64,000 nt of DNA from Methanofollis formosanus (lineage in GTDB: Archaea; Halobacteriota; Methanomicrobia; Methanomicrobiales; Methanofollaceae), in contig NZ_CP037968.1 of assembly GCF_019633745.1 (NCBI RefSeq), positions 620,001-684,000 of the forward strand, read 5' to 3'. The notes under the pieces are model-generated. The model searched no databases. It was not told the origin of the DNA and saw only the letters and a list, made by a program, of their open reading frames with translations. The position numbers were made by a program, and so were the translations under genes. Positions 49,077 to 53,157 of this stretch are shown here, piece after piece. Every line of letters starts with the position of its first letter. Positions within the stretch are counted from its first letter, which is position 1.

Positions 49077-49742
49077 TTATCTATGTTGCAGGAGTGCCTT
49101 GACCCGTCCGAAGGGAACGTCGGGTGCCGCAATGAGACACAGAACACCGTCGTCATCGTCGGTGACCAGGAAGGTTCCGGACCTGGTCTCAAGCGTGAAG
49201 TCAGAGACCGCACCGATCCCGAGGACGTCCGCAAGGTCGCGGGCGGTTCCTAAGGCCGAACAGAGCGCATGCTCGTCCAGGTCGGCAGGTCGCCGTCCGG
49301 CAAGGACCTCAAGCCCTCCGGCACCGCACCTGCCCACCATCATGATCCCGGCATCAGACCACGACGGAACTGGTGGCGGCCGGCTCTGGACCGGTGGAGC
49401 GGCCACCGGCGTCGGCTCGGCCTTCCGGCCTGCGATCTGGACGCCATGCTCCGTGCACCATTCCCGGGCGGCCGAGAACTCCTCCGTCGTATACCGACAG
49501 AGGGTCAGATCGACCGCCTCTTGAGAGAGGAGATATTCCCGGGCCGCGTTGCCGCGCAGGACCACCCCGCCTGACCTGAACCAGTAGGCGAGCACCTCGC
49601 CCTTCCTGACCAGGAGAAACCCGTTCCCTCCCTGGACCTCAACCGCAACCTTCCCGACGAACTTGCCGGTGTGGGAAAATATCCACGTGAGCGGGGCCTG
49701 CATCGTGCCAAGACTGGCTCCTTCAGGGAGTTCCACTGTCAT
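49077..49742 (-). CDS. Roadblock/LC7-like protein with N-terminal DUF4388-like domain
   Basis: 221-residue soluble protein of unassigned family. The N-terminal half (residues 1-100: GTMQAPLTWIFSHTGKFVGK, GNGFLLVRKGEVLAYWFRSG) looks like the domain that reports effect or polymer state in archaeal and bacterial signalling proteins. A Pro-rich linker (PTPVAAPPVQSRPPPVPSW) joins a C-terminal roadblock-like alpha/beta domain (ALCSALGTARDLADVLGIGA... TFLVTDDDDGVLCLIA). The start overlaps the previous gene by 4 bases. It completes a four-gene HAMP/roadblock operon. Confidence 0.6.
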   Translation of the reverse strand: MTVELPEGASLGTMQAPLTWIFSHTGKFVGKVAVEVQGGNGFLLVRKGEVLAYWFRSGGVVLRGNAAREYLLSQEAVDLTLCRYTTEEFSAAREWCTEHGVQIAGRKAEPTPVAAPPVQSRPPPVPSWSDAGIMMVGRCGAGGLEVLAGRRPADLDEHALCSALGTARDLADVLGIGAVSDFTLETRSGTFLVTDDDDGVLCLIAAPDVPFGRVKALLQHR

Positions 49743-50089
49743 ACCACTGATGTAATCAATTCTATGTTCTTCTTCATCTCGTATCTGACCCGCCCCTGAT
49801 TGGCGCCCGGGCCGAGAAGGACCGCAAGCACCGAACCGTCCTCGATGGGCATGACCAGGAGACTTCCCGTCGTCCCCTCCACGATGGCCCCGCCATACCG
49901 CTCGGTCTCCAGTCCGCCGGCGAGCCGGTCCCAGGAGGAGGCCGCCCCATGAATCAGGGGGGCGGCACCGTCCCAGTCTGCCTCGCCGGCCTGACCGAGC
50001 ACCTCGCCCTCAGGCCCGACCAGGGCGGCACCGACCGCCCCGCCGACCAGCAGTTTTTTCAGAACAAAGGTGAGCATTCCAACCATCAA
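49739..50089 (-). CDS. Roadblock/LC7-domain protein, 116 aa
   Basis: Single-domain protein with the roadblock pattern: an N-terminal helix (MLTFVLKKLL), a strand GAVGAALVGPEGEVLGQAG, then helix, then GAIVEGTTGSLLVMPIEDGSVLAVLLG and a C-terminal helix. Roadblock proteins are GTPase-activating or scaffold partners of small GTPases (MglB-type). No GTPase is adjacent here. It has 4-base overlaps with genes on both sides, so it is tightly co-translated. Confidence 0.7.
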   Translation of the reverse strand: MMVGMLTFVLKKLLVGGAVGAALVGPEGEVLGQAGEADWDGAAPLIHGAASSWDRLAGGLETERYGGAIVEGTTGSLLVMPIEDGSVLAVLLGPGANQGRVRYEMKKNIELITSVV

Positions 50090-50328
50090 AAAACCTCTTC
50101 AATGCCCGAAAGTTCCAGAATCCTCTTTCTAAGCCGGGTGGCGGCCTCGGTGCTGAGGACCGGCGTCACCGCCGCGTGGCAGGCCTCTGCCAGGGCGGGG
50201 AGGTCGGCCCGGGTCAGCCCGGACGGACTCTTCTTCAGTGTCTTCTTCGCACACCTGGAGAGGAGATACCCGGCCGAAGGGCCGATCTCCTCCTTCAGCG
50301 CCGCGAGTACCTCGTCGTCCAGCGGCAT
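50086..50328 (-). CDS. Hypothetical 80-aa helical protein
   Basis: Small, all-helical protein (MPLDDEVLAALKEEIGPSAG then LLSRCAKKTLKKSP and KRILELSGIEEVF). I do not recognise it. Its place between a HAMP protein and two roadblock proteins, with a 4-base overlap downstream and a 12-base gap upstream, suggests an adaptor of the same complex. No membrane segment is present. Confidence 0.6.
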   Translation of the reverse strand: MPLDDEVLAALKEEIGPSAGYLLSRCAKKTLKKSPSGLTRADLPALAEACHAAVTPVLSTEAATRLRKRILELSGIEEVF

Positions 50329-50340
50329 CCAGGGACCACC

Positions 50341-50763
50341 TCACTCGTTGTCTTCACGGGCAAGGGCGTCGAGGACCCGGTACGAGTTGATCATCCTGTT
50401 GAAGGATGCGGCGAGGTCCCCGATCTCGTCGTTGCTCATGACGTCGACCTCTGCTTCTTTGAGGTCGCCCATCGAGACGTGTCTGGCCACCTCGGAGAGT
50501 TGCGTGATAGGACTTGTGATGCTGCTTGCAAGGAAGAAACTCCACATCACCACGATCGCAAGAGTCGCCAGGGTCAGGACAAAGACCGTCCCCTGGAGAC
50601 CAAGGACTTCCACAATCCCTCCGGTGTCTCCCGCCGCCATGATCCCGAGCAGGATGACCGGGATCACCGCGACAAAGAGCATGCTCGCGAAGAGTTTGTA
50701 GAAGATGGGGATCTGGAGGGTGAGGCTCCTTCCCCGTGTGCCGGACTTGGCCATACCTTCCAT
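50341..50763 (-). CDS. Stand-alone HAMP-domain membrane protein
   Basis: 140-residue protein with two transmembrane helices (about 19-44 and 58-82) separated by a very short outside loop, then a HAMP domain (about 83-130: ITSPITQLSEVARHVSMGDL, NDEIGDLAASFNRMINSY). No kinase, methyl-accepting or cyclase domain follows; the chain ends about 10 residues after HAMP. It is therefore a bare signal relay, and its output probably goes through the roadblock proteins encoded downstream. TATA-like TTTTTAAATAC (50779-50795 region) is placed for a leaderless start at 50763. Confidence 0.75.
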   Translation of the reverse strand: MEGMAKSGTRGRSLTLQIPIFYKLFASMLFVAVIPVILLGIMAAGDTGGIVEVLGLQGTVFVLTLATLAIVVMWSFFLASSITSPITQLSEVARHVSMGDLKEAEVDVMSNDEIGDLAASFNRMINSYRVLDALAREDNE

Positions 50764-50775
50764 GGAAGATTATTC

Positions 50776-50798
50776 TGCAGTTTAGTATTTAAAAATTC
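50776..50798 (-). promoter_or_regulatory. TATA region of the HAMP/roadblock operon
   Basis: On the minus strand TTTTTAAATACTAAAC lies about 20-28 bases before the ATG at 50763, a spacing for leaderless transcription. No ribosome site precedes that ATG. Confidence 0.45.
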
Positions 50799-50922: not shown

Positions 50923-53157
50923 TCACTCTGCAGCAGGGTTTTCCTGGTCTGCATGCCAGGAACGCCCCACCAGGGAGAGGACCGCGGGCATCACGATGAT
51001 CGCGCCCAGCAGTGAAAAGCCGACCGTGATCACGGTGACGACACCGAAGTTCTGGATGATGTTGAAGGCCGAGAGGATCAGTGCCGAGAAACCGAAGACT
51101 GTCGTCATGCCCGAGACCGTGATCGCCGTCCCGATCTGGGAGACGGCCTGCTGGATCGCGTCGTAGACGTCGGCACCCTTCTCGCGCTCCTCGTAGAAGC
51201 GCTCCATGATCAGGATGGTGTACTCAGAGGCCACCCCGATGGTCATCGAACCCAGGACGGCGGTGAGCGGAGTGTAGTCGATCCCGAGGATGTACATGAT
51301 CAGCCCGTTCCACCCGACGATCATCATGATCGGGATCAGCGGGGAGGCCGCCTTCCCGATCCTGCGGTATATCAGGAAGAGGAACCCGAGGATGAGCCCG
51401 AAGCCCAGGAGCGTCATCTGAGTCTTGCCCTTGGCGATATCGTCGATGAGTGCAGTGAAGAGTTCGAGGGTGCCGGTGGGGTCGGCGACGATCCCTGCCG
51501 GCGGTTTGTCCCAGGCGATGTCCTGACGAACTTTATTGACAAAACTCTGCGCGTGCTCCATCTCCATATCGGTCAGGGAGAACTGGATGACCGTCTCCAT
51601 GTTCCCGCGCAGGTACTTCGCCTTCTCGGCCTCAGGGATCCGGTCCAGCACCGCGGCGACCTCGGCGTCGGTGCCGGGCAGGACACCGTTGTTGTATTTC
51701 TGGATCAGCGTGACGATACTGGTCGCGCCGGTGATCTCGGCATTCTCCTTCACCTCGGATTGCTCGAACCGCTCGATCCATTCCAGACTGTCAAGGCTGG
51801 TGACGTCGTCGCCCCTGATATAGAGGGGCAGCGTCTGGGTCGATCCCATCGTGCGCGTGATCTTCTTGAGGTCGACGACCGCCGGCATATCAGAGGGAAC
51901 GAAGGTCTGCTCGTCGGTGCTGATCTTGATCTCGCCGTCCATCTCGACCCCGACGAAGGCGACGAGCCCAAGGATGAGGAGGATGGGGACCGGGTTCTTT
52001 GCGATCTTCACGGCCAGACCACCGAGGAAGGAGTTATACGCGTCCATCCTCCCGCTTGTGGGGGCCTCGACCTCTTTTTTCGGGCGGTACTTGATGAGCA
52101 CCCCGAAGGTCGGAACGATGATGAGGGCCGCAAGATAGCACATCACCACGCCGATGACACAGACCAGGCCGAAGCTCTGCACCATCGGGACCGGGGAGAT
52201 CCACATCGCCAGGAACCCCATCGAGGTCGCGACCATCGCATACAGGACCGAGGGGCCGGTCTTCGTGATGGTGGTCACCACCGACTCGTCGACCGGCGCC
52301 CGCCGCCGCTCCTCCTCGAACCTGGAATGGAACTGGATCGCATAGTCGATGCCGATCCCGATGAGCACCGGGAAGGCGCCCATCGTCGCCATGTTGATCT
52401 TGATCCCGGTCAGGCCCATCAGCCCGAAGGTGAGGATGAGGCCGGTGGCGACGATGAAGACCGGGAGGAAGCGGTACCTCACGTGGGAGAAGAGGAGGCC
52501 GACGGCAAGGATCATCAGGAGCATCGCCGCACCGATGAGGACACCCATCGAAGAGCCCATCTCTTCCTTCATCTGCTGGGCGAAGGCCGGATCCCCGCTG
52601 ACCGTCACCTGGACACCAGGCGGTGGGTTGGAGATGGCCACCGCCGAGTCGATGGCATTGAGAACGTTCTCCCTGACGTCGGAGGAGACTCCGGGATCGA
52701 GGGTGATGATCCCGATGGTCATCATGTTGGAGGGGACGTAGCGGTCCATGATCTCCTGGGGCACTCTCGCCTTGGCCTGCTGCACCTCGCCGTCCGAACG
52801 GGGCAGGACGCCGCCGTTGACCTGTTTGACCATGTCGACGATGCTCTGCGTCGAACTGACATAGCGCTCGTCCCCGATGTCCTCCTGGAGGGTGTCCAGG
52901 TATTCGAGGACCTGAGGATTGAGCACATCGTCGGTCTCGACCAGTAGCATGATTTTGTCGGACATGAACGAGTCCGAGTACTTGTCGTAGAGCATCCCGC
53001 GGGTCGTGGACTTGTCCAGGTAGGTGTCCGACCCGGTCTCCATCGAGATGAGACTCATCCCATAGAAAGAAACGAGGAGGAGCATCACGAAGAGGCCGGC
53101 GACCGTGGCGGGGTGTTTATTGATGGTTTCTGCGATTGTCTGATAGGGGGACTTCAC
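50923..53157 (-). CDS. MMPL/RND-superfamily transporter (HAE3-like)
   Basis: 744-residue membrane exporter of the archaeal hydrophobe/amphiphile efflux-3 type. It is an internal duplication: each half has one helix, a large outside domain of about 180 residues, and a bundle of five helices. Sterol-sensing-like motifs recur: GIGIDYAIQFHSRFEEERRR in the first half and GVASEYTILIMERFYEEREK in the second. The start is GTG at 53157 with GGAGG upstream. The substrate may be lipid or isoprenoid-like. It lies directly upstream of the HAMP/roadblock operon but has 159 bases of spacing. Confidence 0.9.
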   Translation of the reverse strand: MKSPYQTIAETINKHPATVAGLFVMLLLVSFYGMSLISMETGSDTYLDKSTTRGMLYDKYSDSFMSDKIMLLVETDDVLNPQVLEYLDTLQEDIGDERYVSSTQSIVDMVKQVNGGVLPRSDGEVQQAKARVPQEIMDRYVPSNMMTIGIITLDPGVSSDVRENVLNAIDSAVAISNPPPGVQVTVSGDPAFAQQMKEEMGSSMGVLIGAAMLLMILAVGLLFSHVRYRFLPVFIVATGLILTFGLMGLTGIKINMATMGAFPVLIGIGIDYAIQFHSRFEEERRRAPVDESVVTTITKTGPSVLYAMVATSMGFLAMWISPVPMVQSFGLVCVIGVVMCYLAALIIVPTFGVLIKYRPKKEVEAPTSGRMDAYNSFLGGLAVKIAKNPVPILLILGLVAFVGVEMDGEIKISTDEQTFVPSDMPAVVDLKKITRTMGSTQTLPLYIRGDDVTSLDSLEWIERFEQSEVKENAEITGATSIVTLIQKYNNGVLPGTDAEVAAVLDRIPEAEKAKYLRGNMETVIQFSLTDMEMEHAQSFVNKVRQDIAWDKPPAGIVADPTGTLELFTALIDDIAKGKTQMTLLGFGLILGFLFLIYRRIGKAASPLIPIMMIVGWNGLIMYILGIDYTPLTAVLGSMTIGVASEYTILIMERFYEEREKGADVYDAIQQAVSQIGTAITVSGMTTVFGFSALILSAFNIIQNFGVVTVITVGFSLLGAIIVMPAVLSLVGRSWHADQENPAAE

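Follow-up and report, generated by a model that had tools for sequence, protein, structure and literature searches.

Af1503 is a founding structural model for HAMP signalling, and to our knowledge receptors of its kind end in the HAMP domain with no recognised effector. In the Af1503-like receptors the HAMP domain is the sole cytosolic part and is coupled to a STAC protein of 60–90 aa that carries an LGPx(x)A motif; one described receptor/STAC example comes from Methanofollis liminatans (PMC4834066). In CbrA the STAC is seen packed beneath the membrane domain, whose motions it is proposed to relay (PMC13022988). Roadblock proteins have been described in other settings: those of arCOG02603 occur in many archaeal pilus loci (PMC4858521), MglA-GTP stimulates assembly of the type IV pilus (T4P) machinery in Myxococcus and Thermus (PMC9481161), and a methanogen-specific Group 4 of MglA was reported in 2014 to lack conserved neighbours (PMC4316618). 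Both the Af1503/STAC type and roadblock regulation are known, and it is their union, found here in one Methanofollis operon, that is undescribed in the literature searched.

The window, i.e. the whole 64,000-nt stretch analysed (C1:620001-684000 of a 2.97-Mb genome), contains four minus-strand ORFs that form one operon, encoding a HAMP protein, a STAC-family protein and two further proteins which we refer to as P3 and P4 (Table 1). The distance of the TATA-like TTTTTAAATA from the HAMP start makes it probable that the operon has its own promoter, and its position suggests a near-leaderless HAMP transcript. The preliminary description had the genes joined by 4-base overlaps: this stands for P3/P4 (ATGA), the only clear 4-nt overlap in the operon, fails for HAMP and STAC, where a 12-nt gap separates stop from start, and depends on the start codon at the STAC/P3 junction (TGATG), where the overlap is 1 nt, or 4 nt with a TTG start.

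Table 1. The operon, its parts and its upstream neighbour, in window positions.
Feature	Position	Strand	Evidence and remarks
Output-less HAMP membrane protein, 140 aa	50341..50763	-	Pfam HAMP 3.6e-13; 8-row family alignment
Parts of the HAMP protein, N to C terminus			Short N-terminus, TM1, ~12-aa loop, TM2, HAMP, 14-aa tail
C-terminal tail motif YRVLDALARED, after HAMP domain; proposed docking site	50350..50382	-	Motif count, 43/43 vs 0/25
STAC-family protein, 80 aa, helical, IGPSA motif	50086..50328	-	Profile-profile comparison
P3, stand-alone roadblock/LC7 protein, 115 aa	49739..50086 (50089 if TTG start)	-	Robl_LC7 orthologues, PDB profile matches
P4, N-terminal alpha/beta domain (~1-100), disordered linker, C-terminal roadblock (~126-221)	49077..49742	-	
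TATA-box-like TTTTTAAATA	50786..50795	-	23-32 nt upstream of HAMP start; read from sequence
MMPL/RND-family transporter	50923..53157	-	Upstream of HAMP gene; MMPL E 2.6e-54; outside conserved unit

The first protein matched Pfam HAMP (E 3.6e-13) at residues 77–126 of 140 and no other family above the cut-off, upholding the original reading of a HAMP protein with two membrane helices and no output domain. Just 14 residues follow the match, and as read from the sequence the loop between the hydrophobic helices is ~12 residues long, so that both a sensor and an output domain are lacking. Identity is 72–91% within the genus and 57–64% in other families, and the eight-row family alignment has a mean column identity of 80%. 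Directly after the HAMP domain, 43/43 HAMP proteins of the roadblock-type operon end in the motif YxΦLDxL(A/S)x(E/D), a pattern defined post hoc in carriers that are all orthologues, whereas it (as YxΦLDxLxxE/D) occurs in 0/25 loci of output-less HAMP receptors with STAC but without roadblocks, a set that includes a few duplicate views of one gene. The motif is kept in rows of only 42% identity, with or without STAC. We propose this tail, of which the literature searched (mostly non-subscription papers) holds no description, as a candidate docking site for P4 or the P3/P4 pair, a lead and not a proof.

For the 80-aa product of the second gene, the initial description as a helical adaptor was correct as to a small helical protein, but incomplete, as it is a member of the known STAC family, a call resting on sequence profiles and gene context. 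The HAMP-protein search also retrieved larger sensor-TM-HAMP genes without output domains, each directly preceding a 75–79 aa helical gene with a GPAA-type motif, and the profile of the window's small protein aligned with the STAC proteins of other output-less HAMP receptors (hhalign P 1.4e-8, probability 95.5%). The joint STAC profile found members in 31 of 393 genomes of the phylum, and its matches with E < 1e-15 all sit behind an output-less HAMP gene (27/27). A direct PDB search with the STAC family profile reached a best E of 0.21, and an intermediate was needed: a weak member from genome G230 (L109) matches Af1502 (PDB 5A1Q) at 2.1e-22 over its whole length, and the Af1502 group aligned with the joint profile at P 1.1e-6 (91% probability). 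The motif is present as EIGPSA at residues 14–19 of 80 (family consensus GPSA/GPAA). STAC proteins are characterised by a four-helix bundle made of two hairpins; an AF2 model built from 7 sequences gave three helices, with two helices merged into one (pTM 0.66), and a Foldseek search with it returned no match below 0.001, 5A1Q being absent from the 50 best. Among all HAMP matches in 12 genomes, 16 had a frame of < 400 aa and 14 of these precede a STAC gene; the other two (G020, G364) are roadblock-type operons. As the 80-aa protein is a STAC and the Af1503/Af1502 pairing is described, the HAMP+STAC half of the operon is of an already known kind.

STAC proteins were also observed in other contexts. 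At five loci (L104, L105, L106, L110, L116) STAC lies directly behind a pair of ~110-aa membrane proteins without HAMP, each with several predicted helices, and the same STAC context is found in a Methanofollis (G006); these pairs may represent a further class of STAC-coupled membrane sensors. A STAC domain is fused near the C-terminus of 299–358 aa proteins without Pfam match in L101, L102 and L117, the fusion gene lying behind a 133–135 aa membrane protein in L101 and L117. In L100, L113 and L114 a sensor-HAMP gene and STAC come first and a response-regulator/histidine-kinase gene third, and L100 and L113 show a 4-base overlap; through this order STAC may feed into two-component signalling in trans.

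The two remaining genes had been called roadblock-type, and both calls are upheld by HMM and profile searches and by orthologues. The window copy of P3 alone falls just below the Pfam cut-off of 23 for Robl_LC7 (21.8 bits, E 1.6e-4), its orthologues match in 18/18 cases (best 5.5e-12), and the family profile matches solved roadblocks from Thorarchaeota (3e-11), CvnB5 (8e-11) and MglB (3e-9). The window P4 has no Pfam match by itself, whilst 6/19 orthologues match Robl_LC7 (best 3.4e-5), the C-terminal part of the P4 profile matches PDB roadblocks at 5.8e-5, and the best PDB matches of the P4 AF2 model are roadblock, p14 and MglB structures; taking orthologues, profile and model together, we identify the predicted C-terminal domain as a roadblock. 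The N-terminal alpha/beta domain, modelled with a mean pLDDT > 90 for most of residues 11–100, is unlike any Pfam family. The analysis gave no support for PATAN/DUF4388, P4 being unmatched by the DUF4388 profile; that profile matches other proteins of the pilus/MinD clusters, below cut-off. At two loci (L172, L173) the HAMP-P3-P4 operon has one more gene immediately behind P4, which is response-regulator-like and encodes 222 aa.

We find this arrangement in 43 distinct genomes (26 in the whole-genome set plus 22 named records, less 5 common to both, with G010 taken from match coordinates), so it is not a chance one, and the gene order is indeed kept in Methanomicrobiales. HAMP and P4 occur together in 43/43, the P4 frame being broken in L137 and cut by the contig end in L143. 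By gene calls, from which roadblock presence and absence were taken, P3 lies between them except in a Methanoculleus-type clade of eight (L146, L151, L164, L165, L167-L170), where P4 directly follows HAMP. STAC is limited to Methanofollis and a small related group (L127-L131), with an in-frame loss of ~20 aa in three Methanofollis (G008-G010) and a broken frame in G001. In the HAMP tree, whose STAC labels agree with the gene calls, the STAC-bearing forms fall into one supported 24-row clade with the STAC-less Methanoculleus group inside it, which implies that STAC was lost, or gained, more than once whilst P4 stayed. STAC is dispensable in the roadblock-type HAMP operon, and its repeated loss or gain beside a retained P4 marks P4 as the core partner.

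Within the same genome, P3 and P4 are paralogous to a roadblock/P4-like pair at C1:989.9-990.9 kb, which clusters with hydrogenase genes, MinD (CbiA 1.4e-19), a PilB3-like ATPase (T2SSE 1.5e-32) and a T2SSF membrane protein. In L127-L131 a prepilin peptidase gene (Arc_PepC_II 4.2e-22 in L129, the others assigned by eye) comes after the HAMP-STAC-P3-P4 operon, which is divergent to the hydrogenase genes standing first in the pilus/roadblock operon of L072 and of the window genome. The window copy has no pilus genes nearby; in Methanofollis the HAMP operon has moved away from the pilus region and often lies beside the MMPL transporter. The hydrogenase cluster, comprising Vhu-like [NiFe] hydrogenase large and small subunits, a ferredoxin and a 187-aa protein (L066:5618-11996, L072, L074-L079, L081), keeps a fixed place beside the roadblock/P4-like pair in all of Methanomicrobiales, with MinD and pilus genes close by. 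The genome's third roadblock locus (L067, C1:1098000-1105000) encodes a MinD-family ATPase and a membrane-anchored roadblock-like protein, and a divergent roadblock gene there overlaps a response regulator.

A small GTPase encoded elsewhere in the genome had been anticipated, and an MglA-like candidate of 166 aa with P-loop and DxxG-type motifs is present at C1:455974, 214 kb from the operon and near no roadblock gene. By size, host range and general motifs it probably belongs to MglA Group 4. It occurs in 42/61 sampled genomes including 25/25 with the HAMP operon, a co-occurrence with a naive chance of 2.9e-6 that ignores, and is confounded by, shared ancestry. The roadblock pair of the pilus operon is present without this GTPase in G012, G022, G032 and G047, hence the GTPase is not its general partner. 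At L147:829-2004 (C1:2193 kb), beside a RecA/KaiC-like gene, lies the gene of a 391-aa protein whose C-terminal part is an Arf-like GTPase domain (Arf 2.1e-7), which makes it a second candidate roadblock partner.

Our preferred reading, to which we give a probability of about 50%, is that the operon encodes a membrane-anchored roadblock signalling unit whose output acts on a P-loop NTPase, with the type IV pilus machinery as the most likely site. The output-less HAMP protein most likely signals by protein contact to the roadblock proteins, a contact that we infer to be direct. The HAMP dimer would be a two-state membrane switch without a sensor domain of its own, responding to the condition of the membrane or of a membrane protein beside it, and its state would be relayed by the conserved tail at its C terminus first to P4, which is the obligate partner, and from there to P3, which probably pairs with the P4 roadblock domain; STAC, where present, would serve as an auxiliary and optional coupler packed beneath the membrane. 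Once recruited or re-oriented, the roadblocks would in turn regulate the NTPase, putatively either the MinD-family ATPase of the pilus or an MglA-like GTPase that acts on the pilus machinery, a target and a direction of regulation that we put forward as proposals. In a bolder form, the roadblocks would be the missing cytosolic output for one branch of output-less HAMP receptors, the HAMP tail would directly grip P4, and the complex would be the membrane input of the MglA-like GTPase of methanogens, to date without a partner, and would steer their type IV pili; we regard this form as doubtful, but if true it would constitute a receptor-to-G-protein pathway without kinase or phosphorylation.

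Other readings share some of these parts. The roadblock pair may directly regulate a MinD/FleN-family ATPase of the pilus or archaellum with no GTPase involved, which we hold as a tentative possibility: the paralogous pair shares a cluster with MinD and pilus genes throughout the order, even where the 166-aa GTPase is absent, although the HAMP-linked pair is never beside a MinD gene in the loci read. The occurrence of that GTPase in all 25 sampled genomes with the HAMP operon, and the methanogen Group-4 MglA without a known conserved neighbour (PMC4316618), would fit a conservon-like arrangement, in which HAMP and P3/P4 form a receptor plus GAP/GEF complex for an unlinked MglA-like GTPase with a non-pilus output. 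A conservon brings together a membrane protein with HAMP, a roadblock of MglB type and a GTPase of the MglA family (PMC13343842, PMC4316618), and P3 has CvnB5 and MglB among its best profile matches in the PDB, but the operon has no kinase-like domain, CvnC homologue or GTPase, the co-occurrence may reflect shared ancestry and the Group 4 assignment is not tree-based; on balance we find this arrangement unlikely.

It is improbable, in our judgement, that an Af1503-type receptor/STAC pair regulates the adjacent MMPL/RND transporter, with the roadblock genes as passengers. Af1503-like receptors are often near transport genes and STAC has been proposed to regulate transport (PMC4834066), the CbrA STAC domain docks under an SLC5 transporter (PMC13022988), and the RND-type neighbour of the preliminary description is real in so far as an MMPL gene lies just upstream in the window and in several Methanofollis genomes. 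However, it is unconserved outside part of the genus, being absent from beside the operon in G002, G004 and every genome of other genera, and most lineages have a STAC with a deletion or none at all, while P4 is always present. As a general explanation the transporter link was rejected as unconserved, and the evidence favours type IV pili as the context. The shortened STAC of G008-G010, the broken frame of G001 and the divergent Methanofollis P3 (E 1.6e-4 vs 5.5e-12 elsewhere) could also be taken as signs of a decaying, functionless remnant, yet few parts are as well conserved as the HAMP protein, at the identities given above, none of the four frames in the window is broken and P4 persists in every genome, and we consider decay highly improbable.

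The preferred reading, of a membrane-anchored roadblock unit, bears on what an output-less HAMP domain contacts: one branch of these proteins has a single roadblock partner, P4, in 43/43 genomes and a branch-marking tail, which reduces the question to a pull-down and a tail mutation. It also makes the operon a candidate source of upstream regulators of archaeal type IV pili and of methanogen MglA GTPases. An architecture without characterised precedent, as first supposed, is too broad a description, since the HAMP+STAC half is known (Af1503/Af1502, PMC4834066), but the roadblock coupling is undescribed in the literature searched, where, mostly among non-subscription papers, we found no paper on the union of output-less HAMP/STAC with roadblock proteins.

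The actinobacterial conservons CvnA-D (PMC13343842, PMC4316618) likewise combine a HAMP-bearing membrane protein with an MglB-type roadblock, and CvnA likewise carries a conserved C-terminal motif, LPxR (PMC4316618); in contrast to them, the operon has no histidine-kinase-like domain, CvnC homologue or adjacent CvnD GTPase, and P4 and STAC have no conservon counterpart. The MglA/MglB polarity system of Myxococcus and Thermus (PMC9481161) also employs roadblock proteins, but its core module has no HAMP partner, whereas the methanogen GTPase is unlinked and a GAP role of the roadblocks is only putative. The euryarchaeal roadblock/MinD/type IV pilus clusters (arCOG02603, PMC4858521) encode roadblock and P4-like proteins paralogous to P3 and P4, and unlike the operon have neither HAMP nor STAC genes. 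In the Af1503/Af1502 pair of Archaeoglobus fulgidus (PDB 5A1Q, PMC4834066), HAMP is likewise the sole cytosolic domain, without effector, and the HAMP gene is likewise followed directly by a 60–90 aa helical STAC with an LGPx(x)A-type motif. Coupling to STAC as in Af1503-like receptors is found in the window and in part of the family, but not in most other lineages. In comparison with Af1503, the HAMP protein of the operon lacks an extracytoplasmic sensor domain, having the ~12-aa loop in its place, and in comparison with the pair the operon has roadblock genes downstream, an optional STAC and a specific C-terminal tail.
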